Shown here piece by piece: positions 1,787 to 61,022 of a DNA stretch of 64,000 nt (positions are counted from its first letter, which is position 1; each line of letters begins with the position of its first letter). Below the pieces are notes generated by a model that ran no database searches, was not told where the DNA came from, and saw only the letters and a list, made by a program, of their open reading frames with translations. A program made the translations under genes and the position numbers. Source of the stretch: Ectocarpus siliculosus (lineage: Eukaryota > Sar > Phaeophyceae > Ectocarpales > Ectocarpaceae); contig FN648327.1 in the NCBI GenBank assembly GCA_000310025.1, positions 1-64,000 on the forward strand, in the 5' to 3' direction.

Positions 1787-2581
1787 TAGCCCGAGTGTTC
1801 GCAAGAAAATAGACAAAAAAAGAGGGGAAGATGGAGGAAAAGGAGGGGTCGGGCGGCGCGTAGGCTAGCTAAGAGAGCAGCGCGCGCCGCTCGAAAGAGA
1901 CAGCAGGGTCAACAGCTTAGGGTAGCAACTTGGAATGTGCGGACTTTGGCTGTAAACGGGGCCAATGGATACGGGCGAGCCTACAGCGTTCTACACGAGG
2001 CAGCGAGACAAGACGTATCGGTGGTAGGAATGCAGGAGACACGGAGGGCAGGTCAAACGGAATTTGCAGCAGCGGGTTTCCGGGTGTTCTGCTGTGGCAC
2101 GGAGACTGGTGGAGTCCATGGTGTGGGGATAGCCGTCAAAGAGTCACTGTGCAAGACATCCACGTTCACTACGGAGTTTATCGACGAACGCCTTATGGTC
2201 ATGAGGTTTCTGTTGGCAGGCCACCGTGGAGCGGTCAACTTCGTAGCCGCGTATGCTCCAACCGAACCTTCAACCGCCGACAGCAAGCGCGTGTTCTGGG
2301 GAAAACTTGACAGTCTCGTGCGGGGGATCCCTTCCAAAGAATTTGTGTATGTCCTAATGGACGCCAACGCGCGGACGGGAGATAGGTTGGACGGAGGGGA
2401 CGGAAGGGTAATAGGAATGTACGGGCGTGATGAGCTCAACGACAATGGCATGCTACTGTTGAATTTCGCAACGGAAAACAGGCTAGCTCTCACGAACACG
2501 TTCTTCGAGACACGCAAGGGCGGAATATGGCACATACAACGGTGTCGGGAAACGAGTGCAAGCGCCTTGACTACATCCTGA
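1787..2581 (+). pseudogene. LINE endonuclease segment (EEP fold), broken
   Basis: In frame 2 a strongly basic leader (many Arg/Lys, 1802-1912) runs into the classic endonuclease start L-R-V-A-T-W-N-V-R-T-L at 1916-1948. Then come M-Q-E-T-R-R (catalytic Glu), Y-A-P-T and M-D-A-N-A-R-T-G (catalytic Asp and Asn). The frame is lost near 2525. The missing end, R-L-D-Y-I-L-T-R and S-D-H-N-M-V (catalytic Asp-His), continues in frame 1 from 2527. All active-site residues are thus present but split over two frames. Upstream, an ATG at 1711 opens a short peptide that stops at about 1812 near an A-run, so the leader may also be frameshifted. Role in an intact element: nicking target DNA to prime reverse transcription. 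Confidence 0.85.
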
Positions 2582-19435: not shown

Positions 19436-19690
19436 TGATTGCAGGGCTCTGTCTGGCTGCTGTGTTTATTATGGCTGGCACGCACACTCTCCAAAGCTTC
19501 TTTGGACAAACCTCGCGTTGCTATAGACTATGCACCAACAAGCAGCTGCCAACAAGTGCCTCGTGTGCGGTGCAACCGTGAACTGAAATGTGAACCTGTT
19601 GAACTTGCTGGGCAGCAGCCACTGGCCAGGCTGGGCAGCTGGGCAGAACCTCTGGGAACCGTTCGACTGTGTGTGGGTATATCTCGAATG

Positions 19691-33238: not shown

Positions 33239-36200
33239 TTAGCTACGGGGGGCCTCCCACTACAAGGACAAGGATCACGTCATTCACACGTGGGAGGGGT
33301 CAAACGAAGGGCGGGCGTTAATGCGATTCTCGCCTCGAAGCGGACGCCTGGGGCTGTGTCGAACACGCGAGGCGAGAGTAACAGCAGTTCGGTTCGACGT
33401 TCCATTCCAGGCTTCTCGAGCGCTACAGAAACGGGCCGCGGGGGTGCCGAAAGACCCTCACGGTGTCGAATAGAGCGTTCTGGGTGCTGGTCCAAACTGT
33501 GGACAACCACTTGCAGGAACGGGCAACATGTACATGATGTGTGGTGCCGCGGAGCTCACGCAGCGGAGAATACACTGCACGTACTCTAGAACGCTTCACA
33601 TTGCGTGCAACTGGTGTTGGGGCAGACTGTAGCGTGTTCGCTTGAGGAAGAAAAACGCGGTGTCCTGTAGAGGCAACGTTTTTTCCCACGGCCAATTTGG
33701 GTAACTTGGGGGCCCAATCCGAGGTTGTGGTTGCTCTTGGGGTGGGACAATACGCACACACGGAGAAGCTCGTTTCGCTGGTCCATTGTGCAACTTCCAA
33801 GATATCACGAGCAAACCCAACGAGGGCCATTCAGGGAGGGAGAAAGAGCAATGACTCAAATCTTCACCTTGGACTCGCGGGTGACGGTGTTGACGTAGTC
33901 TGATTGTTTGGAAACGCCCACGGTGCAGTCGCCGTCCAACATCCGTTGCATGTGCAAAACGGGGTCATGTCCATTCCGTACCATTGAACGTTACGGGCAG
34001 CCCCACGCGAAAAGAGCAAGGTGCGAGGAAAGGGTCAGTCGGGTTGTGATGTCCCTAGCAAAGATGCGTTCGACATGGACAGCAGTGGCAAAACGGAGGT
34101 GCATCGATGGTTGGCTTCATTTTTATCAGCAAATTCACACATATAATGCGGGAATCTAAATGGCTGTGCAAGAAAGGGTGACTGCAAATGCTGAGCCCAT
34201 TTCGGTAACTCGCTTGGAAGCTACTGTACGACTGCCCACGAGTATTCCATCCTCCCGCGTCGAATTGTCTTGGCTGAAATAACCACGGCTCGGCATGGAA
34301 CAAAAACCGCACCATGACTTGAATAAAGCCCACCTCTCCACGCGCATGATAGGGTAAGCAAAAAACTCACATGGCCGGTTGTTTGACGCGGTACGCCTCT
34401 CCCAGTTCGGGGGAAGGGGGCCGCCGCCGCCGTCGACCTGTGCCCCCCCAACCGCCCCCCCCCCCGCCGCCGCCCCGGCAGCCGTCTGTGCTGAACGGTT
34501 GGACAGATACACGGCCGTTTTGTAGGAAGGGGCGGCGGGGAAGCTCCCCCAAGCGGGGGGAGGCGAAGGGTCCCCCGCCGCACTTTCGCGACCGTGCGGG
34601 TGGTCGTGCGCGTGGGACGAAGAGGAACGGCGGGAGTTGTCGGCGGAGGAGGCGTTCGAGCCACGGCGCGTGTGCGCCATCGGCATGTCGATGACCTCCG
34701 GCCGGCCGCTGGAGACGCTGCTGGAGCGAGGGTGCTGGGTGGGCCTCTCCCACTGGGTTGTCTTGCTCACCGTGTCCTGGAAGTCTGGAAAACGCAAGGG
34801 AGTGGATCGAATCGGAGCAAGGGCAGGCCGGCGTACCGATTCCAAGGGGGGCGTGCGATGGGAAAACGTGGGTGGGGCGGGCGTTGTGCGGTCGAGCATG
34901 GGTGCTGACATGCTGGGGAAGTTCTTGAGCCCAGATGACTGAACTGGAAAAACAACCATCCCGTTTCCTGCACCCCCCCCCACCGAAACTCACCGCAAGC
35001 TAATGGGAATGGGTCGAGAATGGTGTGTGCACAAAAGTAGGTGTACAGTAGTTTCGCTTCAGCCTATCGGTGGAAGAATGGAATAGGCCGCGGGATGACT
35101 AGACAACGGGATTTCTTACGGGAACAAACACCCTCCCCAACCTGGCGAAGAAACGCTGACAGGCGCGCGCACACGGCCGGCACTAAACAGGCAGCTACCA
35201 ACCCTTAAGCCTGAAGCTATGGTTGCCGCCATTACCTCGCACGACGAGTTGGGTGATTGTCGCACGAAAGACCGACGACATGTGTGTGTCTGTGTACGTG
35301 CGCGAGCAAACCTCAACGGCACGGGCGGCCGGAAGGGGCTTCGGCACTCACAGGTCTTGCCGCTGTCGTCTGTTCGCGAGATCCAGCCTGGAGGAAGAGG
35401 GTCGCCCTGGCAAGACATGAGATGGAGGTTGCCAAGACATGGCAGAGCAATGACTAGTGAGCGCGAGCGAGGCCTGGTGGAAACGAGGAGACGAACACGC
35501 CTCCTGAACGATTGAGGAAGGTCTCGCCATGCCGCCGGTAAGCTATTTAGAGTGGGGAGGCGAAAACATGAACACTATTTAACTCGCAGAGGGGTAATGT
35601 TGACGTGTTGTTCGCAGCGTTCATGCACGGTTACGTCGAGGTTCCCCTTCATTCCTGACAGGACTTATGTATGTGCCACACGGAGTCCAACACGGGTAGG
35701 TAAACATGCAACCCGTAGCTCCCGTCGCAAACGGTCGCAGGAAAATCGAAGCAATACTGCAAAACCCTGGGGAATCCTCTCGCTTCTCACCGACAGCTGC
35801 CCATGTTCCCGCGAAACACCAGCACCCGACGAAGCGTGCGCGGGCTGACGAGCGAAACAGAGATGCGGAGGGGGGTCGGGGCCGGGACAGACGGAATGGA
35901 TGGGCTTGGTAAGTCGACCACAAGGCGCCGGTTTCATGCTCGGAACTGGGTGCTTCTCGGGCTAACGCCATACGGACCGACAGTTCTCCAAATGACGCCG
36001 AGGATCAAGACGGGCTATAGCCGGAGAAACGAGGATAGAGCGTGCACTGCCCCACGTTGGTTGCTGCCCCCCAAGAACGAGGAGCAACGTTCGGCTAGTT
36101 TCTATGGAAACGTGCAACAGCGGTAGCGCCTGCCTCTGTGTTGACGCGCCTCTGACACCACTCTTGCCTGCCACAGAAGGACAATTGAGCCTCGCTCTGA

Positions 36201-39200
36201 ACCGAAGCGGAACGGGGCGCCACCAGCACGGCCCCCTTGCGGCCAAAATTATCCCTGACCCCTCAAAAAAGAGTCACACTCCCAGCCAAATTATCCGACC
36301 TACCTGTGCAGGAGAGGTGTGCACGTCGCAGAGGGCATCGTTTGGGCAAACGACAAATTAACTCTCCGCAGACGCCCCGCCGCCGTTCGGCAACGGCAAC
36401 CCGCATCTCTACGCCCATCGGCGTGGAATATCGAAACAGAGTGGGTCTTTCTTCGCACCACCGCGTGCGGACTCACCCGGAAGATTCGATTCAACGCCGT
36501 ACCGGAGGCCTGCGGGCCCCCTCTAGCGCTGCCTAGGGCGTCAGGAGGCGTGCTCTGTTTCTTGCCGGTCAGGGGGTGGAAGTAGTAGATGCTCCCGTTG
36601 GCCCTCTGTTTCTTGACCCAGTCCGCGGGTAAGTCTTCCTCCGAGGCGTCGAGCTCGATATCCTGCAGGAACATGTTTCCCGATCAGGCACGCCGCGAAG
36701 CGATGCGGGCCGGAATCACGTATTCGTGGGTGAGAAGGGGAGGGATGCAGTAGTGATATCAAAGTGCTTGAGTGAGAGAAAGAGAGAGAGAGAGAGCCAA
36801 ACGGAACGGGTGTCCGAAAGGAGAAATGAGCTTTCCTCTGTGTGGAGGCGGACGACACAGAACCCCCCCCCGGCTAAACATAGAAAGCGAAATCAACCAG
36901 CGTTGAGCTCCACGACCATGCAACACTCCTCTCGAACAACACAGGGCGATGAGTGCTACCCGACAAAATCATCGACCCCCGTTTGTTATCTAAAGTAAAC
37001 AGTCAGGCTACAAGCTTCACGGTCTCCCACCCAAACCTGGTTCGATATCGACGAGCGGGAGCCGAGGGTGGACAGGCGCTTGTTGACTATGGAGGCCGGC
37101 TTGGTCACCGACTTCCTGAAGTTGCGCATCTTGCGGTCGGGCGACTGCTTCACGGAGTACACGAAGAACAGCCCGAACCCGGTCACCACGAACTCTTCGA
37201 CCGATTTGTGTTTGTGTGTTTGTGCAGCAGAGAGCAACAACAGCCAGAGCAGGGGTGACGGCGAGCGGGAGAGGGTTTTCGTCAAAAAGCAAGGGCGTTG
37301 TAAAGCTTGCCAACTCACCAAGAAAACTGACGCAACCAGGTGAGCCGTTTTTTTTTTTAGCTCTTTTTTTTTGGCGGTAACCATAATGGTGGTCGAGTAG
37401 ATCATGCTGTGCGGGGTGGAGAAACCTCACTCCGCGCAAGGGGGATGATCGCACCACGTTGTGTTAAATTGGTCAAGCATCCTCGAGGCAATTACACAGT
37501 GCTTATAGCTGTCTCTGGAAGTGAAAGCACCAGAAAATAAATGAAGTCATACGCAGCTGTCATCCGTACGCAAGGAAGTAAGCACAAGATGCCGAACACC
37601 CTTAGCAGGATGCAGCTCACCCTTCATGCGACTCGCCGAATACCTCACGGTGCTTCGCGCTTGGTGATGTGACAGCCTGGTCCGGTGAGAACCCGGCATG
37701 CTCCGTGCCGGCTTTGTAGGGATGCGAGGTCAATGGTCTAACGACTACGGCATGCACGACTATGAGTACCCCCCCCCCCTCCCCCTTCACCGCGTTTCCT
37801 TGGGGAATTCCTCGGCATCCTCGCCCCCCGCGCCATTGATATGTCGTTCATGTAATCGTTACCCTTGTTCCCCCGTCCAACTATCTTCAAGAAAAAAATT
37901 ATACCAAGCAGATGGCAAGCGTCAGGGACTCTCGTCTCAATATCCGAAAATGCAGTTCCACCAAATTAGGTTCCAGAACCACGGGGACACAATTCCAAGC
38001 AGAGGGCACAGCAGTCAAACCGTTGTTCAGAACCGCAAGAGACTCTCCGCATGAGCCAAGATATGAGCGACAAAACAAAAGAAAGAGCTGTCCCTCCTTT
38101 CGAGGTGTTGGTACTCACGCCAAATGCCCCCGATGGCCCCGATGATCGACCACCCGTCAACAGGATCGACCTCCTGTGGGATAACGAGCACGCGGAACAC
38201 CGGAGCGGCGGGACACCACAAGCGAGCGTCAGCCTCAACTAGTGCTGAACAAGAGGGAGGCGGCGGCCGCCCAGGTGGTGCACACGCGTTCATGTGCTGA
38301 CAGCGCTGTCGGGTGTCGTGTGGGCTGGGTTTGAAGCATCGATTGCTGTGCTTTGTTGTAAAGCGGTACGGACGTGAATTCGCCAAATCGGACCTAGTTC
38401 GACACGTTGTCTTCATTGGCAACAGCTAGGCCACCAGGCACACACCTCTTGAAGCATGCTTCGGGAAACTCGTCGAGTTATCCAGAGGATCACAAAAGAG
38501 AAGAAGGCACTAACTACGAAGGCAGAAGACAGTTTGGTGTCATCGTCAACAAGTCCAACAAAAACTGGCGTTTCTTGCATCACAAACACATGCTTCCAGA
38601 CAGGTACCACAAGTACACGGGTCTTCCCTGTTGCTACGTACGTATATCGGGAAAGGAAGAGCGTATTGGCAAAACGGCGGCAAAGCAAACCCAAGGGGAG
38701 ACCTCTTCCTTGCTTCGTTTGTTCACTTGCCACGATGGACGTGTACTCGAACTTCGGGATGGACACGTCGACCATAATGAGCGCGAACTCCAACTCGATC
38801 GTCTCTTCGGTCCAGTACCAGTTCTGCGTTCCCGTCGTCGTGCTCTGAGAGTAGGTCCGCTGCCGCTCCTCCCGGTTGCCGTTGTCGTCAATCCCCGCAA
38901 ACTCCGTCAGGCCCATCACCTGCACTCGTTTTCGACCAACGGCGTGGGGTTGCTTTTCTCCGCCGTTTTTTCTGTGCTTTCCTCCTAGGAGTCACAGCTC
39001 CGATCCTGGCGTCTGTCGCCCCTCCCCGCGGGAGGAACCAGGCATCCACGCCAACTCCTCTTTCGCAACATGTACAACACCGGGCCACCCCAAACAACAG
39101 CACATGATCGCACCGAGATCTCCCACGACCACGCATTGCACGCTGACCTACGGGGACCACAACTCCTGCGGCTGTACCGTGGTGGTTCCCGCATACACGC

Positions 39201-42200
39201 TTCTTTTTTGAGACCGCGGAAAGCGGACATTTTCGCTGCCCACAAAAAAACACATTTCACAGTCCGCCTCCTGCCAAAATTTGCGGGATGGCACCACGAA
39301 CAGCTCGACCCTTCTACCGAGAGCGGTAAACTCGACACGTTCGGGGTCCTCCGGAGTGGGAAGGGCAGGGGGGGGGGGGGGGGGAGGGGGGGGGNNNNNN
39401 NNNNNNNNNNNNNNNNNNNNNNNNNNNNNNNNNNNNNNNNNNNNNNNNNNNNNNNNNNNNNNNNNNNNNNNNNNNNNNNNNNNNNNNNNNNNNNNNNNNN
39501 NNNNNNNNNNNNNNNNNNNNNNNNNNNNNNNNNNNNNNNNNNNNNNNNNNNNNNNNNNNNNNNNNNNNNNNNNNNNNNNNNNNNNNNNNNNNNNNNNNNN
39601 NNNNNNNNNNNNNNNNNNNNNNNNNNNNNNNNNNNNNNNNNNNNNNNNNNNNNNNNNNNNNNNNNNNNNNNNNNNNNNNNNNNNNNNNNNNNNNNNNNNN
39701 NNNNNNNNNNNNNNNNNNNNNNNNNNNNNNNNNNNNNNNNNNNNNNNNNNNNNNNNNNNNNNNNNNNNNNNNNNNNNNNNNNNNNNNNNNNNNNNNNNNN
39801 NNNNNNNNNNNNNNNNNNNNNNNNNNNNNNNNNNNNNNNNNNNNNNNNNNNNNNNNNNNNNNNNNNNNNNNNNNNNNNNNNNNNNNNNNNNNNNNNNNNN
39901 NNNNNNNNNNNNNNNNNNNNNNNNNNNNNNNNNNNNNNNNNNNNNNNNNNNNNNNNNNNNNNNNNNNNNNNNNNNNNNNNNNNNNNNNNNNNNNNNNNNN
40001 NNNNNNNNNNNNNNNNNNNNNNNNNNNNNNNNNNNNNNNNNNNNNNNNNNNNNNNNNNNNNNNNNNNNNNNNNNNNNNNNNNNNNNNNNNNNNNNNNNNN
40101 NGGGGGGGGGGGGGGAGGGGGGGGGTAGCTCCATCCGATGGCAAGCAACAGCCCTTGAGGGAAACCAATCTAATACGGCGGCGGTCTGACATGCGCCAAA
40201 AAAAGCTCACCATGTGGTTCACAGTTGTCGTGAGCTCTGTGGCGGTGGTCGGCTCGATTCGCGCGTAAGGCAGCTTGACGTCCACGCTCTTCCCCTCCAG
40301 GGGCTCGACGCCGGCTTCGACGTCGATCAGGTACGCGCTCAAGAACTGGGCGTTGATGGGGTAGATCTCTGGGTCGAACGTGTCAGCGCTCTCGTACCAC
40401 AGGAACTGAGCAGAAGAACACAAAAAAAAAAAACGCGCCCCAAGAGCGTTAGCCGTTCAGAACCGAAAATGATCTGTGTGTTACATGTATGTATGCACTT
40501 GTGTCTATTGTCGATAAAAATCAGTAGCTGAGGGCAAGCCTTTGTTTATCCTCGCGAATGGTGGAAATTGCAGGGAAGGCGGGGAAGTTGAACCCGGGAT
40601 GTGGAGTGGTCGACCACAAGGCTAGCAAGAGGTAGCATACACCTGACAAAGACGTGCTTCCTTTTCCTATGGGCAACACAGACAATACACCCCCGGCGCG
40701 AAAAAGAAGACCAAGAGTCTGCTTTGCGTGGATCGATGCCTTCCAGCAACTTCGACACAAAACTAGCTACACTTGTTTGCTACCAGACGGTGGTTACGTG
40801 CGTGCAGGAGCACGGTAAACCAGCACACGACGTCTTTGTTTTCGCCCCAAACACCCGGAGCTTTCGCTCCGGTGCTGCGCGTTCCCCGGGCGGCCAGAAA
40901 ACACCGAGGTGCGTCCGTGTGCTTTGAAGGTCGTTTTCGTTGCCCACGCGTGCTATAGTGCAGGCTCGTCTTGCACACAACGGCCCGGTCCACCCACCCA
41001 ACACCGGCCCCTTGGTCTTCTTCGACCTTCCATTCTGCCCAAACAAAAACCGAGGAATCAAACAACCTCCTCCCCATCGACGGCGGCATTTTTGCAACCC
41101 CCCGCAAAGAGCAGCACCGCACACTCTGGAGGCAGCCTCACTCTGACCGACGCTTTTCTTTCTCTCACATAGAATGAAGCGTCGAATGAATCCACGTCTC
41201 CGCTGTTGATCCCGTCTTCGTCCATCGTCAGCCGGGACAGAGGGATCACGCGGCAGTGGGGGAACTCTTCCTCTATGGCCGACGTGGCGTCCGCGTTGTC
41301 GTCGAGGAAGGTGTCGAGGTCGTCGGTGAACCCCTGGTTCGGGCGCGGAGGGATTTCGTTACCGAGAGAGTGCCACGGGTAAAACAATGCCGTAACAACA
41401 ACAACAACAACAACAACAATACTTGCATGCATGGGTCGGACGTCGAACACCAACAGCGCTTGTGTGCATACATATCACTGCCGCCTTGTGTGCGAAAAAA
41501 AAAGGGGGGGGACAAGTGCGGCATGCGGCATCTACTACCACCCTTCTCTACAGTCCGGGACACGTGCCCGACCACACATGACTACGAAGAAGCGTCCGCC
41601 CGAATCAGCTCTACCCCCGGCCCCAAGTGACCACCGCGTAGGCTGGAAATAGTTCCTCCGGGAAGCTGAGAGGGATCGAACGGGTTTTGTCGTGCATACA
41701 CGTCATTGCGGAGGTAGATGCGTAACGGCCGGGGGCAGAGCCTACCGGTGTGTCCGCACGCCAAGGCCCGATGTTCGATTCCGAGGCCGATCAGAGTGTG
41801 CGCGACACGGAACAAGCCCGGGCCACCCAGAAGCAAGGCCTACCTGATTTATTTTACCGACTCAATGTGCGACGACGACATACCTCGGCGGAAACCATAG
41901 CGCCCGCTGAGAAATCGAAGCAAGAGTTGGTTTCCTCCAGGCAGCCGTTGGTGAACTCCGTGCAAAACATGATGTCAGCAAACTCGTAGTGCTCTTGCTG
42001 CTCGTTAGGAAAGGGGGTGCGCGAGAAAAAAGCAACAGCAGGCGCGCGGGATAGCAGCAGCGGACGCGGTGGAGCCGGCGGCAGGCGATCGGAAAACAGA
42101 ACTCTGGCAGGCTTGCAGAGGAACAAAAAACGCTTGCCAGCATGAAGACAAGCACCATGGCTTGTTTTTTCCTGGGAAACTGCTAGGCCGAAGCACGACG

Positions 42201-45200
42201 GCTTGGGAGCATGATCGCAGCATGCCATTTGGGGGTGTAACATGAACAGGTCCTATCTAGCAACGCCAATCAAGAGGGTTTGTCTTTGTCGTTCACCCTA
42301 CCGCCCTCTGCGATCGCTCTTACTGCCTCGACCACGTTGCGGGGTCTTAAGAAGCCGACATCAAGCCGTTAGACTATGTAGTCTGTGTTACGGTTTGATT
42401 TCGGCTTCTGTAACAGGCTGCCGACAGTTTCACACTGAGGAGGGTGACTCCCCTCGCCAGCGCTGCTGTCCATCCAATGTATAACTGGCTTCATGTTCTC
42501 GATGGTCACCCGCACGGTTTGATTTCGGCTGCTAAAAGGTCCGTCGACATTGAGAATGAAGTGGACATGGGGGAGCCTGAAAACAGAGGTTTCACGTATG
42601 GCTCAGGTCCACGTTGAAACATACGAACAACAAGAAAGACCACGAGTTTGTTGTCTATCTTCTGGCCTCGCTGCGCGTTCTTTTGTGGCGGTCATCGTAC
42701 CTTTAGCTCGATGCTTGAAGCCGGGTCCTTTCTGGACTCGATTGTCTGCCATATGATGTACGCCACGTAACCCAGAAATCCCAGGAGAAGAAGGATCCAG
42801 ATGACGGTCGCTTTCTGGCGGTGCCTCTTCACGACAAGCCTCGGCAGCCTGGCCGATCCACGTCAGTGGGGGCGGGGTTAGTCGTGGCGGACGGCATCAC
42901 GCTGGGTAACACACACACACCGGGTAGGCGCCACTTCAATCGAGTACATGGTGGTATGTGTGATGCCAATTTGGCCATCCGACAGCAGCAAGTGAAGCTT
43001 ATGACTCTTTCGAACAAAACCAGCAAGCTTATCAGAAAAAAGAGACAGCAGTCGTCATGAATGAGGCATGCATGACGGTTCACGGATGCCATGACATGCC
43101 ATTGACTCGGTCGGGACCCTCTCCCGTATTTTGGTCGTTCAGAAACCTGGCCTTAAATCCTTTCCATGGTGACCAAACCTTGGCGACCGTTCGTGAGAAG
43201 GTTTGGGTCTCACGCGTGGGTAAGGGTTCTGCCAAAACATGATCGTCATGACGGGGTCCACCAAATGATGTCAATACCCGGAAGAGACTCTGTCAAGAGC
43301 CCTAGCCTCCGCCCTTCGACGGCAACGAAAACGGTCCTCGATGCGCCACAAGGTGATTGGGGTTCGGGCTTGGAATGGGCGTAAACGCAAACGAGAAAAC
43401 TGGAGGTTTGTGTCGAGAGAGCACTCAAAGGACTGGATTCACCTCCTACCGTAAAGGCAGAGGGCAACCCATCGAGGGAAACTGGCCGCCGGGCAAACTT
43501 CATCCCACGAGTTCACCGAATTGAACTCGCGGGAAATTGCGGCCGCTCATCGTAGCTCCCCCTTACTTTCGATGGAACCTGGCCGCCGTGCTTCAATGCT
43601 GTTGCTCAAACGTTTGGCTCCCAACCCCTCGGGACACGCATCGATAGTCCTTGAAAGCTTCAATGGGATATGTAAAACGTGGCTTGTTTGAAGCTACAGC
43701 AACCGTTCTTTAGGAGTGCAAGAAAACTATTCCAAGCCTGCAAAGCTTTCCGTGGAGGCTTGACCGCGTCCCATGGCAGTTAGCATGCTGTTCTTTTAGT
43801 CAATATAGGAAAATACGAAACTACTTTAGTCTACACATGGCAAAGAATGGACGGTTCATAATATGGACCATTCTTGTGTTTCCGTTGTGATTTCTGATGC
43901 CTTCCTGACAGTTTTGCCACCGTACTTCGTACCACGTACTCGAGTACTTTGTACAAGCTAGTGGTGGCTACGGTTTAAGAGAGGGTCGGGACAAACCAGT
44001 ATTTCTCTCTAAACTTCCGGCTTTCTCTCATACCGGTTTAACGTACCAATAATGAAGGTGAGGGAATTATAGAGCGGATGCCTTGCCTAGAGCGGATGCC
44101 TTGCCTACACTGCCATATGAAGATGCTCATGATGGAGGACATGATAACAATCGTGCTAAACACTGCGTCAACGCCTTGTTGTGCCTGCTTGGCACATACC
44201 ACAAATAAAGAACAAAAACGCGAGTCACCGAAATAACCCCAAGAAAAAGATGTGGCAGACACCTGACGTGTCGGATATGTCATGGGTGTTTAGTCTCAGA
44301 TCCAGAAGAGGAGCTCGATCATTCTGAACAAGGAGGAACGGGCGATTCGTCCGGGGCAACCGTAGTGCGTCCGCCACTGTACTCGGGGCTAGGAAAACAC
44401 TGTTGTAGTTGTCAACTCGAGGATATCGCCGAGCAAGAAGTTCGGCATGCACAACGCCATGTTTGTGAGGTCAACGTAGCACGGATGAACGAATATGGGT
44501 CGAGGAAAGCAAAGTAGCAAAGTAGACGTGCACAAGAGAGACTTCATGTTACGTGGCACAATGGTACCGCGGTAGGACATAATTCTACTAAGGCCGGGAC
44601 TGGGGGGGGGGGGGGGTGCACAGACAGCCAGCTGGGTCGCAGACACGGTGCATCTCGTCGTTGTCGCCACGTGGGTCAACCATACCGCCCGTGGAGTTAG
44701 CCTCCACAGACCCTGTACTGGCGCGTCGTGAAGTCTGGCGAGGCTGGCTTGCAATCGGAGGCACTCCAGCAGTGGCTGCCCGCTGCCCAGGGCATGGTAC
44801 GTACGGTTTTGGGTGTGCGTATAATTGCGGCTTGTCCTCCGCCAGGGTTCGAATTAGGAGAATGCCGTAAGGATGCGAGTCGGCGCACAGGGGTGCGAAC
44901 GATTTCAAGGCGTATTTTCTCCACAACCCGGAGGTTACCACTGCTGTCGAATAGGGCGGTTTTGGAAATATCTCATCTGGAGCTTTCCTGAGGAGTATCA
45001 TTTGGCGCTCGCACCCTCCTGGTTGTGGAGAAATTACGCTTTGAAAATCGATCGCTCCCCTGTGCGCCGACTCGCAACCTTACGGTACGAAGGTACCAAC
45101 CCCACTGTCGTCAGAGGGTCATGGGGGGGAAGCGTTGGTACCCAACAGCCGGTTATTCTGAAATGGAGACCACTTCAACCTCTCAACACTTGCGTGGTAA

Positions 45201-48824: not shown

Positions 48825-51449
48825 ATGGCGACCCTTCCAGCACCATCCGCGGGAAGTACGGCACAGGCTGCCGTACAACCAGCTGATGAGGACGATCGCT
48901 TCGCCTCGCCGCCTGGACTATGGTGAGTGGCATCCTATCACCCAACCTTGCAAACCCAACCTCAATCTACCCCTTGTCTGCCGGACAAGGGTGCTGCTGC
49001 CATCGCATTCGAAGCGGCAGAATGCATGCATGCGTAGTTTACACGGACGGACTCAAACGATGTGTCAATATTGTTGTTGGTGCGTTCGTGTATCTATGTG
49101 CGTTGGAAGTAGGAAACGGCGTGTTCGCTATGGCTGCCCTGCACGTTCGTGATTCAGGTACGGTGGTGTGCGCAGTCTTTTGTATCATACAGCAGTACAC
49201 GACGAGAGCGGTGCGGCAACTGCTGTTTTCAGCCAACACCGAACAGAAGCGGGTTGGTTGTCCGTAAAGCAATGGCTTGAAAAACCAATCGGTACCAACA
49301 GCTGCTGACCTACCTCAGACTCCCAGTTGAGGCGATCGGGTCTGTCTGTGACGGCGAGCTGCAGTAAAAGATGTTGGTGTGGACCCACGTTTGAGGACTA
49401 TTCGGACGCAGCAGCCGTAAGCACTAATACAAAGCTGCAGCCGTCACATTCTCAATAGCACAGCCCAACAAGAGCGCTCTGATCGATCGCGCCAAAGCTG
49501 TCTGTGAATACTTTGCTCAGAAGTTATCAGGAACTGATTGTAAATGTAACATTTCAGATGGCACCCGCCAACACCACATCGGTACTTCAGCACATAGGCA
49601 TAGCAGTGCTGTGTTTGTTGTTTGGGCACCAGTACCTTCATACAGACCTTCCGTTGCGGTGTACATCAGTATAGAACGGGCCCGTTGTTGGGCACCTGTC
49701 AGTCCATGTACACCTTCCGTTGCGGTATGTAGAACGGGCCCGGCGGTAAGAAACGTCATAATCGAGCCGAACCTCCGTTCCTTCTTTTGGGTCGAACGAC
49801 CAGCCGAAGTTCCATTTTCTCATTGACTACTGCTGTAGGTTTCTTTCTTATTGTGGGGCTATCGTATGCTGCTGATAAGAATACATCCAAGAGCCTCGTT
49901 TTGATTTCTGAAGGTGAAACATCTCGTTCAAGCCCTCCAAGACAGAGGTGGCGGAGATTGGTACTTCGAAGCGTTGAAGTACTGCTGTGTGTACCAAACC
50001 CGTGGAGCAGACAGAATGTGTGGTCCGCGACTTGTGGCAGTAGTACTCGTGATCCCCAATATACCGCGGTGTACTACAGTAGTGACAGGCAACAACCCTT
50101 GTAGCAGCGAGGTGTATGTAGTGACGGCCCTTCGTTCAGGGGTTTACGGTCCGTGGCGGTGAGCACGACGTTGACAAATGTTGGGTTCCGACGCAGATGT
50201 CGGACTGTTTTCAGAAGCTGCTTCGACCGTCGATAATTCGATATTTCAGCTCCAGTAGCAAGCCTGAACGTGCCAGTAAACACGACGCCTCTTCATGGTG
50301 TCCTCTACTGGTAACTGTAGAATAGAAGTACAAAATATCTGAACGGCGGGAAGGCTGCTTTTCTCTTTCATGTTGGGTTTAAGTATGTATGAAAATAGAG
50401 TCAGCGTAAAATAGTCTTCAATCCCTTCAAGGTACAGACAGCGTGATTTCCTGGTGGAGACCATCCCCAACCTCTGCTCTGCTGTGCAACAACACCCACA
50501 GATTTTTTCGTGTCCAGCGGCTTCCAAATGGTCAGGTGTATGTATCTAGTGTGTGGTGGCTGGGCGCTCTTTTGGTTGCTTTCAAAATCAGCCAAGAACC
50601 GAGATCAGTAGCCTTCGATCCTTTCACCCTCTTTTACCGCAACAGTGCACACCACATGAGAATAATACAGCAGTAGTGGGTATGTAGCTTGGCGTTTGTG
50701 TGATCGCTCCCACACCCTAAAGTCTGGGGGTATCGGCCCGGTTGCATTCCCAAAGAGCTGCCCGGAATAGCAGAGACACTTCTCTGCGAAAACCCAGTCT
50801 GCGAATGGCGACAAAAAAGCAGGCGATACAATACAAGGAGTTCTCCGAAGATGCACTTCCTTCGTACTCGGCCACGCAGCTACCAGTGCTAGCAGCCCCG
50901 TGTTGGTGGCTTGGTTCGCAACGGGACATCGTGATTCGCAACAGGACCTCGTGATGCTCTGCAGTGTCTGGGCAGGGGTGTGTGCGTATGCACGCAATGT
51001 GGGCGAGGATGCCCTTTGGCGTCTTTGTGTTTATGTTCTTGCCCATGTCTCATGTACCCAACCACTTCGCAAGCATCATGGCGAAGCAACCACGATCATC
51101 CTGCGTTGTAGAGCGCGGATGCTCATGCCTCCATACAGCAAAGTTGTTTTGTGCATCCCTCGCTCCTTCTTTGACCAGTGGGGAAACCGCAAGAGATTAT
51201 ACCCAATATAGGTTTTAGTGGGGGTCGGTTCAAGTTCTAATTTCTTGTAAGGCGGTGCATCCGTTGATCAGAGGATCAGCTACGGGTGCTGTCAAGGACA
51301 GCCATTCCCCAAGCAGTACAAGGGAATCTATGTTCGTGTTACCTTGCAACCTGATCGTGGGCGCCCTAGGCCTGTCACGCGCTTTCTTGATTTCGCTGGA
51401 ATCGGAATAGCCAACGTCCAAGCAGCCAATCGTTCCTTTGTTGCTGTTG

Positions 51450-51481
<32 letters not shown>

Positions 51482-54400
51482 TGTGCTGCTGTCACCAACG
51501 CGCTCTTTTGCCTGTGCCCGGCCCCGTTCATTGCCTCCTCGCCACGACCAACTCGACGCGACTGATCGAAATAGGCTTCCAAGAATGGTGGTCAAGGAGC
51601 ACCGCCAGAAGGCCACGATCATCTGGATAGGCCTCCTGGTGGGCTTCCTGGCTTACGTTGGGTACATCATATGGGAGACTGTTGAGTCTCGAAAGGACCC
51701 CGCTTCGAGCATCGAGCTCAAGGTACGATGGACCACCTCACATTCGCTCCACCCCTTCCCGTACCACCAATGGATGCAGGGAAAAAGCTGAAGGTCAAAT
51801 TTAGAGCCGGGGGCATTGGCCTCCAGAACGTAGGCGAAGATTTGGGAAGGTAGACGATGACAAGTTCCGGTGTGATTGCGGCTCCGAGTTCGAAGACCGG
51901 GTTCATGTAGTTGCGGAATTCCGCCGTTCTACAAGGAGAGGGACGTGTACGTGACTGAGCTGGGAAAAGTAGAAGGAAGATTGAGGGAGATGTTTGAGGC
52001 ATGGAACAGCCAGGAGAAGACGGTAGCGGCAATGGGGCATAGCAAGTGGGTATGCGGGATATCGATAGGATATGGATAGACAAGGGAAGACATTCTGAAC
52101 CACCGTCGGCAAAGTAGGAAGGAAGGATTGGCCATCAGTGATCGGTCGTGTGGGAACAATGCTCTGTCCTCTCGAGGGTGCGTGGTCAATGGTCTAACCG
52201 CTAAGGCATGCTAAACGTAAGAGTACGCCCCCCCCCCCCCCTCCCGTACTATCTAAGCCCTGGCCAAACAGCGGTCAGAAGCTGAAACTTCTCGAGGGGA
52301 TACTGAACATATCACAGGCAACGTTTTTTTTTCACATCTATGGTAGAGGACAATGGCGCAACAGCTATGGACGGACTGTTCGCGCGGTGTTTCCTTTCCG
52401 ACGCAAGACTGGCGTCGTCCCGCTACAAATGGCGCATTTCGCGTGAGGGAAACTTCTGTGTTCCGAGAAAATACAGACTGTTGAGCGTAGGTTTGCGGGA
52501 AGAGGGAAGAAAATGCCCTCACCAGCGCACAACGCTTTCGCGGCCGTCCTAAAAGCAAGGATTCTTTCGGCTCGAGTGCCTAGGGTACCACGCTCCTTGT
52601 GGTGGACTGACTGTAGTTGTAGGTTTGAGAGACCTGTATGAGCTCGTGTGGACTTTCTGAAGCGCACCACCTTCTTCCCTCATGTATCTCCGCCGCAACC
52701 GCTTGATACTGGCCACCTTGCGTGGTGGCCACCGGCAACGCAGCAAGAGCACTATACGTTCCCTGATGTGGCGCTCTGCACCACGTTCGGGAAGGGGTGC
52801 CTCGACTACGACAACGATTGCTTCGAGGACCTCAGTTTTACTTCTATGTTCAACCAAACGGTGAGTAACAGCCGTGACCTAGTCCGCTTCCCGTATCTTG
52901 GGCCTCGACGTTGGGGCGTGTGGTTTGAGGTTTGGCTAGGGGCTGTTTTGCTTCTCTCGTTTGCGCTCTGCAAGCACTCGGTATTTTCAAGGATGCACAT
53001 AAAAGCATGGTGCTTCCCTACGCGCTCCACGAGAAGCAGAAGTCACGTATTTATGCGTCAGTCAAGGGACCCCAATATGCTGACGTGCATGGTTTCGGTT
53101 TCTGTGGAAGGGGTTTTCCCCACTGGACATGCTGTTGCCCATTTGTGTGGAGTGAGCCTACTCCCAGCGCCGATTCTAGACAACAGGCACAAGCTAGTGT
53201 TGAAGAACGAAGTAGAAATGTCTGTTGTCTAAACACTGAAGAAGCTGAGAACAGGATGTTGTGCTTTCACATGAAACGAAGCAATATGCCCGATTTTCGT
53301 CGTGTGTCCGGCATTCCTTTAGTGTACCCCCTACCCCCCTCCAACGCAGGCAGGTATGCAGTGCCCGAACTGCTTCAGCCGAGGCGCCTCAAGGTATTGC
53401 TGCTGTTGGGGTAGTCGCCCGAAGGATGCCCTTGCCGCGTTGCTGAACCCCTCGCGAGACCCATTGTATGTTGACGTTCCTCTCTATGTATAGATGAAAA
53501 TAGCCGTTTTGAGCGCCTCCGCTGCTCGTCCGAGGCAGCTCAAGTTCTTTTGCTGTGTTCCTTGCATGAGAGTGTACGAGTGGGACCAGATGTACCCTTG
53601 CCGCGACTCAACTTCGTTTCGGCGGAGTGCGGGTCTTTCTGCCCCGCTTGACCTGGCCCCATGTGCATTGCTAGAGTTTGGGCAATTCGCCCGATGGCGT
53701 TCACCACCGGTCAACCGCTTACCAGCACAGACTGCTTCAGGAGGGGCACTGTCCAACCCCCGCGTCATACGGCTACGGTGCTAGCCTGCGTCGAGCCACA
53801 TGATTTGGAGCCGTGTGCGTTTCCTGTATTGCCAGGGGTGGGCTTGAGACGTCAACACTACGCAGAAACTTGGGCCATAGCCTAGAGAAAACGTGCCCGC
53901 TGCGCCTCACTGAATCACTAGCAAGACCCGGCAATGGAGTCGAAATACTTTTGGTAGCCAGACCAACTGTCCCTCGCTCTTTTGCCTGCCGGGTTGGGTT
54001 CACGAACGCACCAACGATAATTATCCAGGGTTTTCTCGACTACGACCAGAACTTCACCGACGACTTCGCGTACGTGAGCGAGCCTTTCGAGGAGGTGTAT
54101 CCCAACTGCAAGTTTGTTCCTTTGTCCATGATGACGGTGGACGAGACCGGAGTCAAGAACGGAAGCGTCACCTCCTTTTCGACGGCTTTCTACGTGAGGA
54201 TAGAAGTGTAAATCGCAGGAGTGGTAGTGGCTTGGGTCTACCGGCGATACAACCGCGCGTGGGTGTGGTGCATTGGAACATCGATTCTGCTGTCTGGCAC
54301 TCGTTGCGCACGTAGTCGGCTTGATGGAATCACAACTCCCGCCGACGCCTTTTTGTTCGAGCACGAAATCTCAACAGACGGTACGACTCTCAGTTTGTTA

Positions 54401-57400
54401 GCCATCCGAAACAACGTCGTTGGGAGATAAGACCTTTTTCATTGAGAGCCTTGTGAAAATTTGCACGGTTCGGTGTGGGTGCCGTAGTTGAGGAGATTTT
54501 CGGCTTTTGTGGCCGAGGGCTGGTCGTATTCGGTAGTCCCAAGAGCGGTGACTGGTGTTACCAGCGTGTTTTTCGTTGGAAGGTCGTGCGAGCATACAGT
54601 CAAACAAGGTGAGTTGTGGGGGTTGGATGTATATCCCAGGTCAAGCAGACCTTGATGTGTATCGTTAGGGAGTATTTCCCTTTGCCTGTAAAAGGTGGTG
54701 TTTGAGTTTGTAGTCCGTGCAGCATGCTTTTGAAAGCTAATCGCTCCACCACTAGCTCAAACACAACCACGGGGAACGTTGAGAGCAAGCAGAGGAGAGT
54801 AGCAGATGTGTTCGCTTCCCCACATTGAGAGAGCAGACCTAAGTGCACCGTACAAAATGCATCAACCGCATGACATTTTCATGGCAACGCGATGATTCTG
54901 CTAACAATCGCCAAATCTTGTTGATGCCCATGGAGTCATGATGCGCCGAGATTGTGGTACGTGTGGTGCGATTGGCAACTTGAAATTACGCCAGGGCGTT
55001 AGTTCTTCGGGTTGGATTCCCCTAGTCTTTTCCCCGCCACGGTCTTTTCCCCGCCACGGACGGTGCATGCACGCGCAGAGCGCTTCCTTCCTCTTCAGCC
55101 CCCCCGCAATTGCTTTGATGTTTCTTTCGCGCAGGTCTTGTGGGACGAAAAGGATACCTTCTACGACCATTCCTACTACCTCATCAACAGGCAGTTCCTC
55201 GATATGTACCTCATCCCGCCTGACTCCAGCATAGAGTCGTTCACGAGCGCGAGCGTAGACGCCAAGGTGCCATACTCGCGGCTGAACTTGACGACCGACA
55301 CCGCCTTCGAGGCGACAATAAACCATATGGTGAGACGCATCGTCTTGGCAGACTTTTGCCACCAACGAATGGTAGCACCAGAGCATCGTCCCTCGAGGCG
55401 GGCCGTAGGCCACAAGGATGCGAGAGTTGTGGCGCGGCCGTCTGGCTCGCTTGCTGGAATGGAAGCAGATGGTGGCGTCGGGCATGCCCTGCAGAACATG
55501 TTCATGCGAGGGCTCATCCCCTCGCAGGCGCTGAAGTGGACGAAAGCAGCCAGTATGAAACGTTTTGCATGCCAATAACCAAGAAAACTCCTATTCATTC
55601 CACTTTTTTCGGTTACGTCGACAACTTTTTTGTGTTTTTTTGCGGACGAGGTTTGTTCTGTCGGCCGCATCCGCTTTGTTGTTGCCCCGCAATCCACCCT
55701 TCTTTTGATCCCGTGTCGTTCCACGGCCGAGTCAACAACTACGCCGACCTATGGCCGCTGTTTTTTCAGGGTTAACCTTGGAGCCTGTACACGAGAGAGA
55801 TTTCCTGTCAACTTCACCACATCTTCTTTGCGTACATAGTTCGCCATGACGCGTTAAATACCTCCATCGTTCCGCCGCCCCGCGTGCCTCATTCGGTGCG
55901 TCGTTTTGCGTTTGGCCGGAGCACTCTGTGTCGTTTTTGGTTTCATACGTTGATCGGTCCCGAACCTCAATCGAGGTACGAACGTTCGACAGGCCTCGGC
56001 AAGCTCTTGCCAAGGTCTGTCTGTCCTTGTCGGCCCTGCTAGTGCCTCCAGGGAATCCGAAACAGATTACCTTGCCAGCATGTGTACAGGTTAACCAGAC
56101 GTCCGTTTTTTTTTTTTCTCAACAAATTGTCAGAGGCTTACAAGAGCGATGTTTGTAACCGTCGACACGCGTGCGTGTTAAATGCCCTCCCATTTGTTAT
56201 GGACCCCGATGTTTTCGTTTTCGAAGCGGAAGACCACAAAGGATTTAATATTGTTGTCGACCTGTAGTCTAATACCTCGTGCGGTGCACGCCTCCAACTT
56301 TGATCGTTGTCGCCAGGAGGGTTTAGCCATTCCTTTCCCTCGTTGACAAACCGAAGTTCGTGCACACACGAATCGGCGCTATCCGCGTCTGTTTGGGAGT
56401 ATGGCGAGAAACTACCCCAGTTCGTGCCATTTGCACCAAGAGTGGAACTTGCGTCCAAAAAGTGGCGAACGCTGCGAGGTTACCAGCGCCGAAACGATGC
56501 AAGTTTGCTCGCGCCATGGCATGTTGATTGGAGAAGATCCGCGTTTGTCCTTCTCTGTGCAGGTGCTGGGCGTCACGGAGTTTACGGGGATCAACGAGAA
56601 CGGCAACAAAAAGGAGAAACAGCGATCGTTCTCCCAGGCAACGATTACGGGTGTCGAACACTGGTGGTGGGGCGCCGAAGACTACGACAGCGTCGAATTC
56701 GGGTTCTTCATGGTGGAATTGTCCATCGGAAAGTTCGAGTTCACCTCCATCGAGGTCGGTCTTGTTACATGCCGATGTGCTGAAACTACTAACCCACGAT
56801 CGCCGCGATTTCCATTGAATGTGACATGCGTTCGCTCTTTTCAGCGCCGAACATCTAGCAGCTACTTCGAATACACCCGGTCCGAGCTGACGAATGGTAG
56901 CCCGTGTTTTGCGCAAATGCAACTGTTTGGCGCCGTGAGCCGTGTCCGCGGTGGTCTCATTGCGGAAGCTGGAGCGGGGCGCTTCCTGCGTTATGTAGAA
57001 AACGCTGGGGGGCGCGTAGGTGCCTGGCCAATTACATGTTCGTTCGAAAGTCATAATATTCCTGTGCTCGTGTGCTACCACCTACTCCGCACGCACCCCG
57101 CAGCTCTGCTTAGCACGGTGCCGTGTTTGTACCTCGCGCCTGATACGTAAATCCTTTGCCTCTCATCCTCACTCGTTGGTGCTTTCTGTGGGTGCTTTGC
57201 TCGTCCATGCCGCGATGCACACGTTTTTCAATCTACCCACCAACAGGAGGTCGATCCTGTGGATGGGTGGTCAATCATCGGGGCCATTGGAGGAATCTGG
57301 CGTAAGTCGTCCGCCGCTCATAAGCAAGCACGCACTTGTACTGTAGGGGCCGCACACGCCGAATTGTGGAAGTATGCGACGCGGTGCACCTGTACAGTTG

Positions 57401-60400
57401 CACCAGAAATGAAAGCGCTTCGGCCCCTTCGGCGACCGTATTTTCGAGGCGGGATGCCTGCACCGTGTTTCGAGGGCTGGATAGTCGACGGGTTGATGGA
57501 TTGTCGCTGACCTTACCCGTGCGTCGTTACCTGCTGTACGATGTTGTGCACTGCTGTGTTCTGTTGCCGTATTCGTCGACAATTGGACAATAAAAAAGAG
57601 TTCGTGGTGACCGGCTTCGGGCTGTTCTTTGTTTTCTCCGAAAAGCAATCGCCCGACCGGAAGATGCGCAACTTCAGAAAATCCATCGGGAAACCAGCCG
57701 AATTCGCCAACAAACGCCTGTCCATTCTCAACACCAGCTCCCGGTCATCGAATCAGGTACGATTGGACGATGTCTGCTGCCGGATATCAGTAAAGTCGTC
57801 TCACAGAGTTACCGAATAGTGGCTATGGTGATCCGTAGTGTTTTTAACAGGCATTCCCCCCGAAAGGCAGTCAGGACCGGCGTTGATGTTGATTCCTCTG
57901 GTAAGAGCAGGCGCACTCGCTTGAACCACTATTCGGGTCGATACTGATATTGTTGACGTTGTTGTCGTCTCTGCCGTGCGCATACCTCGTTTCGCTTTCA
58001 TCTAGCGCGAACGTGACCCTCGGCAACGTGGATACGTGTGCCCTCTCCTCGCCTGAAGCCGCTAGATCAATACCAATCGCGGACATCCCCCAGCATCACA
58101 TCGCCTCGTTCTTGCTGTACGAATGTTTTTTGTATCTTTTAACAGGATGTCGAGATCGATGCGTCGGAGGAAGACTTGCCCGTGGAATGGGTCAAGAAAC
58201 AGCGGCCTAACGGGAGCATATACTACTTCAATGTCATGACTGGAGCCAAGCAGACCGCGTCGCCTAACCACCTGGATAACGCCGGTGGCTCTGCTCCGCC
58301 ACCATCCAACTCTGCATTGGGCCGCATTTTCCAGGTGAGAAAGTACATTGTTTCCGCGAGCTCCCTGTTTCACGTGTCATGTCGCACTAAATAACGATGG
58401 ACGCTTTCACACTTGGGCTCATGGTATATGTCTGCCCTGAACGTTGCTTGTTTTGTCTTGATTCCTTTGAAGGGCAACCGGTCAGCACGCCCAAACAGCG
58501 GGCCATTACCTGCAGGTTGGATAGAGGGCACCGACGGCGACGGGAAAAAATGTAAGTGTCAGCAATATCGGTTGTCGGCTTCTGAAGTAGTTGTCTTTCT
58601 CTTTCAACCACCGCAGTGAATCGCAGGCACCATAGCAGAGCGCTCGTAGCTATGTGACGGACTTTGTAGTGCTTGGCACGGAGTCGCCCCCCCCCGGCGT
58701 TTCCTTTGGCAACCTCACACGCTTATGACCCTTCTTGGGACGGGAGTTGGAATTACGGCGCACAATATGGGCTTGTTCTCCCATTCTGCCCAAAAACCCG
58801 GACGAAAGCCGATTTTTGGGGTACGCACTGTCGACTGTTACCGGTCGAAGAGGGAGGGAGACGGCCGCATCTATCTCGCAAATACCCCCAAGGCAAGATG
58901 CGTCGAAAAAAGGCTCGAAGTAAAGTAGAATCAACTAACAGAAACTGTGCGGAGTTGTTCCTGTGTGACTCGGCCTGGTCCGTCCACAATATTTGACCGA
59001 AATACCCCATCTGGTGTGGCCACACACTTTTATCGCCTTCAACCTTAGACCCCAAAAACATCGGCAGCGCGCGCAAGAAAGTCCTCCGGAGTAGCGTCGC
59101 TGGTTTGGTATCTCGTGCTACGAACACAATCGTTACTTTTCAGACTGGATCGATGTACAGCATGGTTCGCCAGACGTGAGAGCATTCGTCATCTTGACAA
59201 ATGACCTCCTCACGGGACGAACAGGTAGATACTTATCGTGATCGGGTTGCTGCTGTCGGTCGCTCCACACAGCACCCAATACGTGAGGCAATGTCCCCCT
59301 AGCTGCAGATGGGCGTGCAGCATCAATTTCGTGAATGGTTCTGTCACGCAGCAACTGCTTTTGAGATGCTGTCAGGTGGAGGTTGCCCAGGTCCGTCTCC
59401 GCACCAAATTTTCTCCCTACTTGACCCTCTTTGACCCTCTTCTCGACTCCCGTGGGAGCGACGTTTCTCTCACCGTTCTTAATGCTCCTCTCTTTTTCCC
59501 GCTGTGTCCCAGACTACTTGGACACGATCAACAAGACCACTCAGTGGGAGCGACCATTGCAACGGGAACATTCCTCCGGCGGTCCCGACAGACGGCCACA
59601 GGCTGTCGACGCACCGATGTCACAGTCACGCCGGTATTCGCACGCTTCCTCGGACAATTCTCACCACTCCGCTTCATCCCAGGCTCCCCACCACCGTCCC
59701 AGCTTGGCTGCTGCTAGTGCTGCATCTGGCGTTGAGGGCAATCCTCCTGCTGGCGGCGCGCCGGCGCCCTCGCGGGGTGCTATTCCCGCCGCGCCTTCAT
59801 ACCGCACGGCGGTGTACCTGTCCAACAGGTCGTCAACGGCAGCGGCATCCGAGGGTGGAGGCACAACGCACCCGCAGCAGCAGTGGCCGGCTCCTGCTGG
59901 AACCACGTCGACGGACTCGAGGGCTGGAGCTCGCAGTGCTGCCTCCCACGTTGACGCGCCTCTCCCTCAGAACTGGAGCAAGCGTACCGCGCCCGACAAC
60001 AGGACATGTGAGTGTTGCGCTTTTGCAACATATCCGCCCTTGCCCTGGAGATGTGATAAACGAAGCGCGTTTGCCGGCTCCACATATCCGGCACCTGAAA
60101 TATTAATATTTACCAAGAGCGTGGTTGGGGCGAAAGTTACAACCTTTAACGCACCTCGAGGTCTAATTGTGCTTCCCGTAGGCCACGTTAGAGGACTCTA
60201 CAGTGTAGGAGTGCCTGTGGCGGAATCACCTCTCCGAAGACTATTGTTTCAGAATGCTGAAACGTTACACGACCCGGCCGGGGGCGTCTCAGGTTTGTCC
60301 TCTATGCTCAGCAAAGCATGCGCCCTTGCTCCTACGCTGTTATTGCGCATCTCTTGTGTTTCTCCGGCTGCCCTGGATGGGGCGTATTGGTCCGGCGTCG

Positions 60401-61022
60401 ACGGTGTGGTCCGGCCAAACAACCAGACTACGTCAACAGCGTCACCAAAAAGACTCAGGTGAGCCAATTAGCATCTCACACACCGCAGTCCCGTCTCGTC
60501 GATCTTCCTCGCTGTCTTGTTGAACAGCTGGTCATCAGGTCTTGGCGCTGTGGTTGTGACGTTGTGATATGCGCCTCAGTGGTGAGCTTTGGCATACCAC
60601 CAGGATCACCAGCGCTTTCTGTGTAGGAGAATAGGACGCCGGCAACGTCAAGCATGTAGCTCCTCGGTCGCGCTCAACGTGTGTAGCATTAGAGCCGTGT
60701 CATGTCTTATGCCTCAGCATCTGCGAAGCGGAGGCTCCCAGTAGATATCCCGCCTGTGGACAAGTGCTTCTATCTATCACACCTTTCTCGGACACTGCCG
60801 CAGCCTGCACGATGACTTTCGTTTCTAACCTCAAACTATGAAGTTCTCGACTCGCCTTCGACCTAGCTTCTCACGCCATCTCCATCTGTACCATAACGGT
60901 TTCAAACCCGCGGCACCTCATCTATGAGAGTATCGTGCACACTTGACCGCCTTCGGCTTTTTGCCCCACGCCCGTTTGAACGAAATTCCTCTTCCTTCCA
61001 GTGGGAGGCTCCCCTTTACTAA
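48825..61022 (+). CDS. Two-pass membrane protein with three WW domains, copy 2
   Basis: Thirteen exons: 48825-48922, 51575-51722, 52744-52860, 54029-54193, 55135-55329, 56563-56754, 57247-57301, 57599-57756, 58146-58334, 58473-58551, 59513-60007, 60427-60458, 61002-61022. They join to 647 codons plus TAA. Residues 1-33 end D-R-F-A-S-P-P-G-L-W as in copy 1. First membrane segment about 47-66; loop 83-311 with F-P-D-V-A-L-C at 88-94; second membrane segment about 313-336 (W-S-I-I-G-A-I-G-G); basic stretch after it (P-D-R-K-M-R-N-F-R-K). WW1 about 387-419 lacks the second Trp; WW2 about 450-480 is complete (Y-Y-L-D-T-I-N-K-T-T-Q-W); WW3 about 615-645 is spread over exons 11, 12 and 13 and ends W-E-A-P-L-Y-stop. 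Exon 7 encodes the same 18 residues as copy 1. The start at 48825 is the first ATG of an exon whose 3' half matches copy 1. Confidence 0.9.
51438..51487. repeat. (CTG)n microsatellite
   Basis: A TTG/CTG trinucleotide array in intron 1 of copy 2, about 90 bases before the acceptor of exon 2. It creates a spurious poly-Leu frame that runs in phase into exon 2 and can be mistaken for a signal peptide. Confidence 0.95.
52178..52227 (+). repeat. tRNA-like fragment shared with 37721-37772
   Basis: GGTCAATGGTCTAACCGCTAAGGCATG lies in intron 2 of copy 2 and is followed by GAGTAC and a long C-run, as in intron 7 of copy 1. Because the host introns differ, this is a dispersed repeat and not part of the gene duplication. 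Confidence 0.5.

Follow-up and report, generated by a model that had tools for sequence, protein, structure and literature searches.

A divergent gene pair of Ectocarpus siliculosus predicted to encode two-pass, DEG/ENaC-related membrane proteins with WW-domain tails

Two genes lying head to head in a 64,000-bp stretch of the Ectocarpus siliculosus genome (contig FN648327.1 of assembly GCA_000310025.1, positions 1 to 64,000; this whole stretch is called the window below) are predicted to encode similar membrane proteins. The products of these genes, A and B, are paralogues and likely to be subunits of an ion channel with two membrane passes that is related to the DEG/ENaC family, which includes sodium channels that sense acid or salt, and that bears WW domains in its cytosolic tail. 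Their sequence relation to DEG/ENaC channels holds at both ends of the channel half, around the first transmembrane segment (TM1) and at the entry into the second (TM2). DEG/ENaC is described as an animal channel family, with few protists otherwise reported in the accessible part of a survey (PMC10507113).

Six-frame translations were compared across the window, splice sites then being fitted by eye and with a script. In this comparison the minus strand at 33.8-46.3 kb and the plus strand at 48.8-60.5 kb gave a series of protein matches far beyond chance (for example 1.2e-28 for the TM1 exon and 1.0e-35 for exon 11). Gene A is located on the minus strand and codes for 617 amino acids, gene B on the plus strand and codes for 647, and both are transcribed divergently from start codons 2,537 bp apart. 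Reconstruction of the 13 exons of each gene required AG acceptors and GT donors only, with the single exception of a GC donor at A exon 6. An earlier note on this DNA had claimed such a pair, on opposite strands, with 13 exons each in the same order and with all 12 intron phases equal. The rebuilt splice models bear this out, and neither frame is interrupted before its stop codon. The same applies to the seven exons of identical length (148, 165, 195, 55, 158, 32 and 21 nt) and to the remaining ones, which differ between A and B by multiples of three (122/98, 114/117, 189/192, 186/189, 55/79 and 414/495). A gap of 707 N (39395-40101) is situated inside intron 5 of A and might hide an exon, though B has none there. 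As predictions read from the DNA sequence, the gene structures of A and B are confirmed. Their parts are, in positions of the window:

46166..46287, minus strand: A exon 1, 122 nt, start codon at 46287
42701..42848, minus strand: A exon 2, 148 nt, TM1; the Pfam ASC match begins here
41884..41997, minus strand: A exon 3, 114 nt, post-TM1 motif FADIMFC and C-x6-C
41169..41333, minus strand: A exon 4, 165 nt, ectodomain, fourth conserved Cys
40211..40405, minus strand: A exon 5, 195 nt, ectodomain
38731..38919, minus strand: A exon 6, 189 nt, GC donor, ectodomain up to pre-TM2 stretch
38119..38173, minus strand: A exon 7, 55 nt, VDPVDGWSIIGAIGGIW, TM2 start
37037..37194, minus strand: A exon 8, 158 nt, remainder of TM2 and basic juxtamembrane stretch
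36477..36662, minus strand: A exon 9, 186 nt, WW1 without second Trp
35352..35406, minus strand: A exon 10, 55 nt, WW2 first half
34371..34784, minus strand: A exon 11, 414 nt, WW2 second half, loose linker with PAAPSYKTAVYLSNRS, WW3 first half
33868..33899, minus strand: A exon 12, 32 nt, WW3 middle
33239..33259, minus strand: A exon 13, 21 nt, WEAPRS and stop
46288..48824, no strand: stretch between the A and B start codons, 2,537 bp
48825..48922, plus strand: B exon 1, 98 nt
51575..51722, plus strand: B exon 2, 148 nt, TM1
52744..52860, plus strand: B exon 3, 117 nt, post-TM1 motif FPDVALC and C-x6-C
54029..54193, plus strand: B exon 4, 165 nt, ectodomain, fourth Cys
55135..55329, plus strand: B exon 5, 195 nt, ectodomain
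56563..56754, plus strand: B exon 6, 192 nt, ectodomain up to pre-TM2 stretch
57247..57301, plus strand: B exon 7, 55 nt, TM2 start
57599..57756, plus strand: B exon 8, 158 nt, remainder of TM2, basic juxtamembrane stretch
58146..58334, plus strand: B exon 9, 189 nt, WW1
58473..58551, plus strand: B exon 10, 79 nt, WW2 first half
59513..60007, plus strand: B exon 11, 495 nt, WW2 second half, linker, WW3 first half
60427..60458, plus strand: B exon 12, 32 nt, WW3 middle
61002..61022, plus strand: B exon 13, 21 nt, WEAPLY and stop

Searching the host genome at the protein level revealed a third gene on contig C4, named C, and a less closely related one on contig C17, named D. Gene C is unlinked to A and B and consists of 12 exons coding for 575 residues, with TM1 split by an extra intron. 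A and B each contain two hydrophobic segments about 240 residues apart (near 51-78 and 318-344 in A). Since the tail sides adjoining both segments are basic in A and B, both termini are probably cytosolic according to the positive-inside rule. The DEG/ENaC arrangement, in which two transmembrane segments flank a large extracellular loop and both termini face the cytosol, is present as a prediction. Further features are held in common with ASIC, ENaC and FaNaC channels: the FPxVxxC motif after TM1, a pre-TM2 block with IGG, and a C-x6-C spacing. The first of these reads FPDVALC in B (aligned to FPAVTLC of ASIC1), FPDLAVC in C, LPDVVLC in D and FADIMFC in A. The ectodomain contains four cysteines in A (102, 109, 116, 155), B (94, 101, 108, 148) and C (97, 104, 112, 147). 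The C-x6-C spacing of A and B is the same as in CHFRGEVC of ASIC1; it is x7 in C. N-glycosylation sequons are found in the ectodomain of B (four) and C (two), with none in A.

When both translations were checked against the Pfam domain database, as the earlier note had proposed, three WW stretches were found in each. The best non-WW match was the amiloride-sensitive sodium channel family (ASC, PF00858; E 1.5e-4 in A and 1.1e-3 in B), below its curated cut-off of 23.6 bits. With channel halves only, ASC was the sole Pfam match for A (3.4e-5, 23.5 bits), B (2.8e-4, 20.5 bits) and C (0.099), as it was for the TM1 part of D (0.0086). All these matches cover TM1 together with the following FPxVxxC and start at model positions 13-16 every time. 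Controls consisted of 100-residue pieces (ten proteins), the two unaltered ones reaching 20.3 and 20.9 bits. No ASC match was obtained with shuffled TM1 (2/2) or with the reversed B stretch, and B with intact TM1 and shuffled ectodomain gave no ASC score (2/2). The shuffle controls therefore indicate that TM1 is part of the ASC signal and that the stretch up to FPxVxxC adds to it.

Profiles of A, B, C and D on one side and of ASIC1 with ENaC alpha, delta and gamma on the other were compared by hhalign. The two best local hits are collinear: a gapless one of 39 columns before TM2 (score 29.9, P 0.0057) and one of 54 columns from TM1 to FPDVALC (score 29.5, P 0.0065). Column shuffling, repeated 60 times, reached no more than 23.5, and the reversed profile scored 17.9. 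For the pre-TM2 block, ten family sequences set against ASIC1 and the ENaC chains gave a probability of 86.5 (P 4.5e-6, score 37.8) over 35 gapless columns, aligned to "NYET...LLGDIGG" of ASIC/ENaC. None of 200 column shuffles reached this score (maximum 19.1). The block was picked after the likeness had been noticed, and mutual similarity, rather than similarity to ASIC, was the basis on which its members were collected. One of the ten sequences, set beside ASIC1, reads LETITEDAPVTIGELLGDIGGFWG. The NYET...LLxDIGGQ block entering TM2 is present in the family, A and B alone being weak in this respect. A TM2 profile for DEG was also built from seven PDB chains, with 5,801 open reading frames (ORFs) as background. 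It placed eight of ten trimmed fragments above every unrelated ORF (0.0016-0.41 versus 1.1), and the best of the 5,801 was the ORF holding the exon of D (0.91). Pfam detected ASC in one of seven fragments (0.22) and in one of five fragments at 0.093 (model positions 405-439), another of the five matching an unrelated family (0.2).

Pfam WW (PF00397) was found above its curated score in A (86.8 bits, E 9.2e-25) and B (96.1 bits, E 1.1e-27), with three stretches each, in agreement with the three domains per protein claimed before. The earlier description of a two-pass protein with three WW domains stands at the level of sequence; the view that this architecture cannot be placed does not, as it now sits near DEG/ENaC channels. 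WW2 and WW3 retain both tryptophans, and WW1 is without the second. The last Trp-x-x-Pro of WW3 comes from the 21-nt final exon in A and B. Since WW2 and WW3 are each interrupted at the same Tyr codon by a phase-1 intron and WW3 is nearer to its own WW2 (14 and 15 of 34 residues identical) than to its own WW1 (8 and 11 of 34), WW3 probably arose from WW2. The tail of gene C consists of WW1 and WW2 (Pfam WW 1.8e-17, two stretches) and stops without WW3. A PPxY motif was found in none of A, B and C. Within the otherwise loose linker, A and B have the stretch PAAPSY-TAVYLSNRS in common, a possible ligand or sorting motif. In a PDB profile search, the WW part of A and B best matched WW domains of NEDD4L and Itch; however, none of the other parts of Nedd4/Itch ligases was found in A and B, where WW domains are joined to a channel-like protein.

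We also estimated the extent of the family in the host genome. One distant pre-TM2 exon used as query gave 21 matches at E <=1 on ten contigs, A, B and C not being among them; 12 had E <0.01 and nine fell between 0.09 and 0.32. The family comprises at least 15 well supported loci including A, B and C, or 24 if weak matches are counted. Eight of the 21 matches, all weak (E 0.09-0.32), lie on C489:594247-885705 and possibly represent a cluster of channel-family exons. Seven of the 21 were translated (D, L042, L043, L044, L046, L047 and L048), L047 being from the weak group; in D the second half of TM2 was not identified. Because none of the 21 distant loci has a WW match within 100 kb, as judged by eye against at least 136 WW matches of the genome, WW tails seem to be confined to A, B and C. 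WW domains as such are very common in this genome, the at least 136 matches (E <=10) including runs such as C15:1688048-1696493 and C3:5116099-5119490. Comparison of the A and B channel halves with 20 other-WW regions, eight WW loci and three regions beyond the window (E <=1) brought up a single weak match (0.38), shared by two overlapping loci. No relatives were confirmed in viral contigs or prokaryote genomes with two short N-terminal-side peptide patterns per scan, by which distant ones could be missed. The light-harvesting family PF00504 has 87 matches in 189 Mb of the host genome, which is therefore that of a photosynthetic eukaryote, not an animal. Clusters of these matches, many with equal score, occur on C92, C232, C488 and C16.

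The proposed inverted duplication is upheld by the finding that A and B are the closest among the three full genes compared. In the alignment of the A and B proteins 357 of 603 residues agree, and the identities of channel halves are 219/368 for A-B, 181/365 for A-C and 173/361 for B-C. The A-B identity is higher around TM1 (40/49) and in TM2 with the start of the tail (58/71) than in the ectodomain (103/221). Over 603 codons dN is 0.316 and dS 1.18; since dN is below dS, purifying selection appears to act on both copies. After masking of the exons, a single 66-bp stretch (E 1e-3) is all that the two regions have in common, and the inverted duplication is therefore old. A shared promoter, as suggested for the pair in the earlier note, is a bare possibility, with start codons 2,537 bp apart and nothing found for or against it.

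Several results weigh against assigning A and B to DEG/ENaC channels. The Pfam ASC cut-off of 23.6 bits was never reached: the best score was 23.5 (A channel half), others being 21.4 and 18.5 for whole A and B, 20.5 for the B channel half, 12.1 for C and 15.6 for D. Much of the score of A comes from TM1, as pieces of A in which the ectodomain was shuffled and TM1 left intact retained 13.7-16.1 bits (3/3). An exon-by-exon search with PF00858 over the whole host genome gave no match, not even A or B, and since these were missed as well, this search is blind to the family. The hhalign probabilities of the four-member hits are low (6.5 before TM2 and 5.8 at TM1). The two trimmed fragments missed by the DEG TM2 profile are those of A and B (not within E 5); untrimmed spliced proteins are weak with it (E 20 for C, 21 for D and 72 for A), B not appearing within E 100. 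PDB profile searches from the family side up to E 10 retrieved no DEG/ENaC chain. DEG/ENaC channels are trimeric and Na+-permeable and conduct an amiloride-sensitive current; their hallmarks are a GxS selectivity filter in TM2, a Cys-rich thumb (about 14 ectodomain cysteines) and an HG gating motif before TM1. The GxS filter is not present in TM2 of A, B and C, which reads IGGxWQFVVxxFGLFF. Thumb cysteines are missing, the ectodomain of all three having four, and the HG motif before TM1 is absent in B and C, with A having HG at residues 4-5 only, where it is not conserved. Unlike DEG/ENaC, A and B have a shorter ectodomain and WW domains, and they lack PPxY. Because the filter, thumb cysteines and HG motif are missing, we regard A and B, from their sequences, as putatively DEG/ENaC-related rather than as members.

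The missing filter and thumb cysteines would fit a lineage-specific two-pass adaptor or receptor, derived from DEG/ENaC or merely alike, that does not conduct and whose membrane half serves as anchor or sensor presenting the WW tail. We consider this the less likely explanation, though one to be taken seriously: TM2 of A, B and C is without GxS (QFVVTGFGLFF, QFVVIAFGLFF), the ectodomain has just four cysteines, WW domains are scaffold modules, and stramenopiles are reported to have WW-tailed membrane-anchored calpains in the accessible text of PMC10762896. However, TM2 with the start of the tail is one of the regions in which A and B have diverged least (58/71), a degree of conservation beyond what would be expected of a plain anchor. 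Improbable is a two-pass family unrelated to DEG/ENaC, in which hydrophobic helices and a GG motif converged. The ASC scores under the cut-off, the part of them that TM1 alone yields and the negative PDB searches from the family side would suit it, but two separate blocks align in the correct order and place, one of them free of gaps (P 4.5e-6) and far above any shuffle, and no Pfam family other than ASC matches the A, B or C channel half at E <=10. That the 13-exon models are wrong, the channel exons being transcribed separately from the WW exons, is hardly credible: the exon joins of A and B are read from DNA and not RNA, but order, phases and open frame are the same in both genes, and the unlinked gene C also has its TM, WW1 and WW2 exons consecutive in frame.

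If A and B are channel subunits, a trimeric cation pore would be formed by TM1, the compact extracellular domain (about 240 residues) and TM2 with the IGGxW motif at its entry, conduction and gating being presumed by analogy, and A and B may assemble as homo- or heterotrimers. The three WW domains of the cytosolic C-terminal tail might dock partners with proline motifs or cluster subunits, so that this platform could act in placement, turnover or clustering. The old inverted duplication would have given rise to the A/B pair, both copies presumably being retained by purifying selection, within a family that appears to have expanded in the alga and in which the WW tail would be a property of one branch (A, B and C). 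The tail of animal ENaC bears PPxY and Nedd4-2 bears the WW domains; here the channel side carries WW, which may mirror this regulation. We tentatively suggest, as a wider possibility that is less secure than the relation itself, that algae own expanded minimal DEG/ENaC-type cation channels with a palm-like core lacking the thumb, one branch having WW in cis, so that the PPxY-WW link runs in reversed polarity with WW on the channel and the proline motif on its partners.

DEG/ENaC-type sequences outside animals are described, in the accessible part of PMC10507113, from Cafeteria roenbergensis and Tunicaraptor unikontum, one of them a stramenopile, with Symbiodinium added among the searched candidates. 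The homologues of Cafeteria and Tunicaraptor cluster with animal channels, and this part of the text does not mention WW domains or brown algae. The WW-tailed membrane-anchored calpains of Ectocarpus and oomycetes are likewise stramenopile membrane proteins with a C-terminal WW domain, but they have a calpain protease core and a multi-pass membrane domain (PMC10762896), and nothing in the present analysis indicates kinship with A and B. Among the listed titles and abstract openings of open-access journal papers, neither a WW-tailed DEG/ENaC-like protein nor the family in brown algae was found. An enlarged DEG/ENaC-related family in a photosynthetic alga would be directly relevant to whether this channel type is ancient and often lost or has moved between lineages, and the A/B pair hints that it is older or more widespread than thought. 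Such a family would offer a minimal version for work on structure and gating, and its WW tail, if the proposal is true, would amount to a natural experiment in how WW domains regulate channels.

Elsewhere in the window, an open frame on the plus strand (2434-4896, 820 residues scanned) contains a reverse transcriptase domain (RVT_1, E 1.7e-35) and represents a retroelement. A 257-residue frame on the minus strand (18695-19465) weakly matches the DinB superfamily (E 1.1e-4), short of that family's cut-off. A near-palindrome at 44864-45086, within intron 1 of A, translates similarly on both strands and might represent a short inverted repeat or a mobile element.

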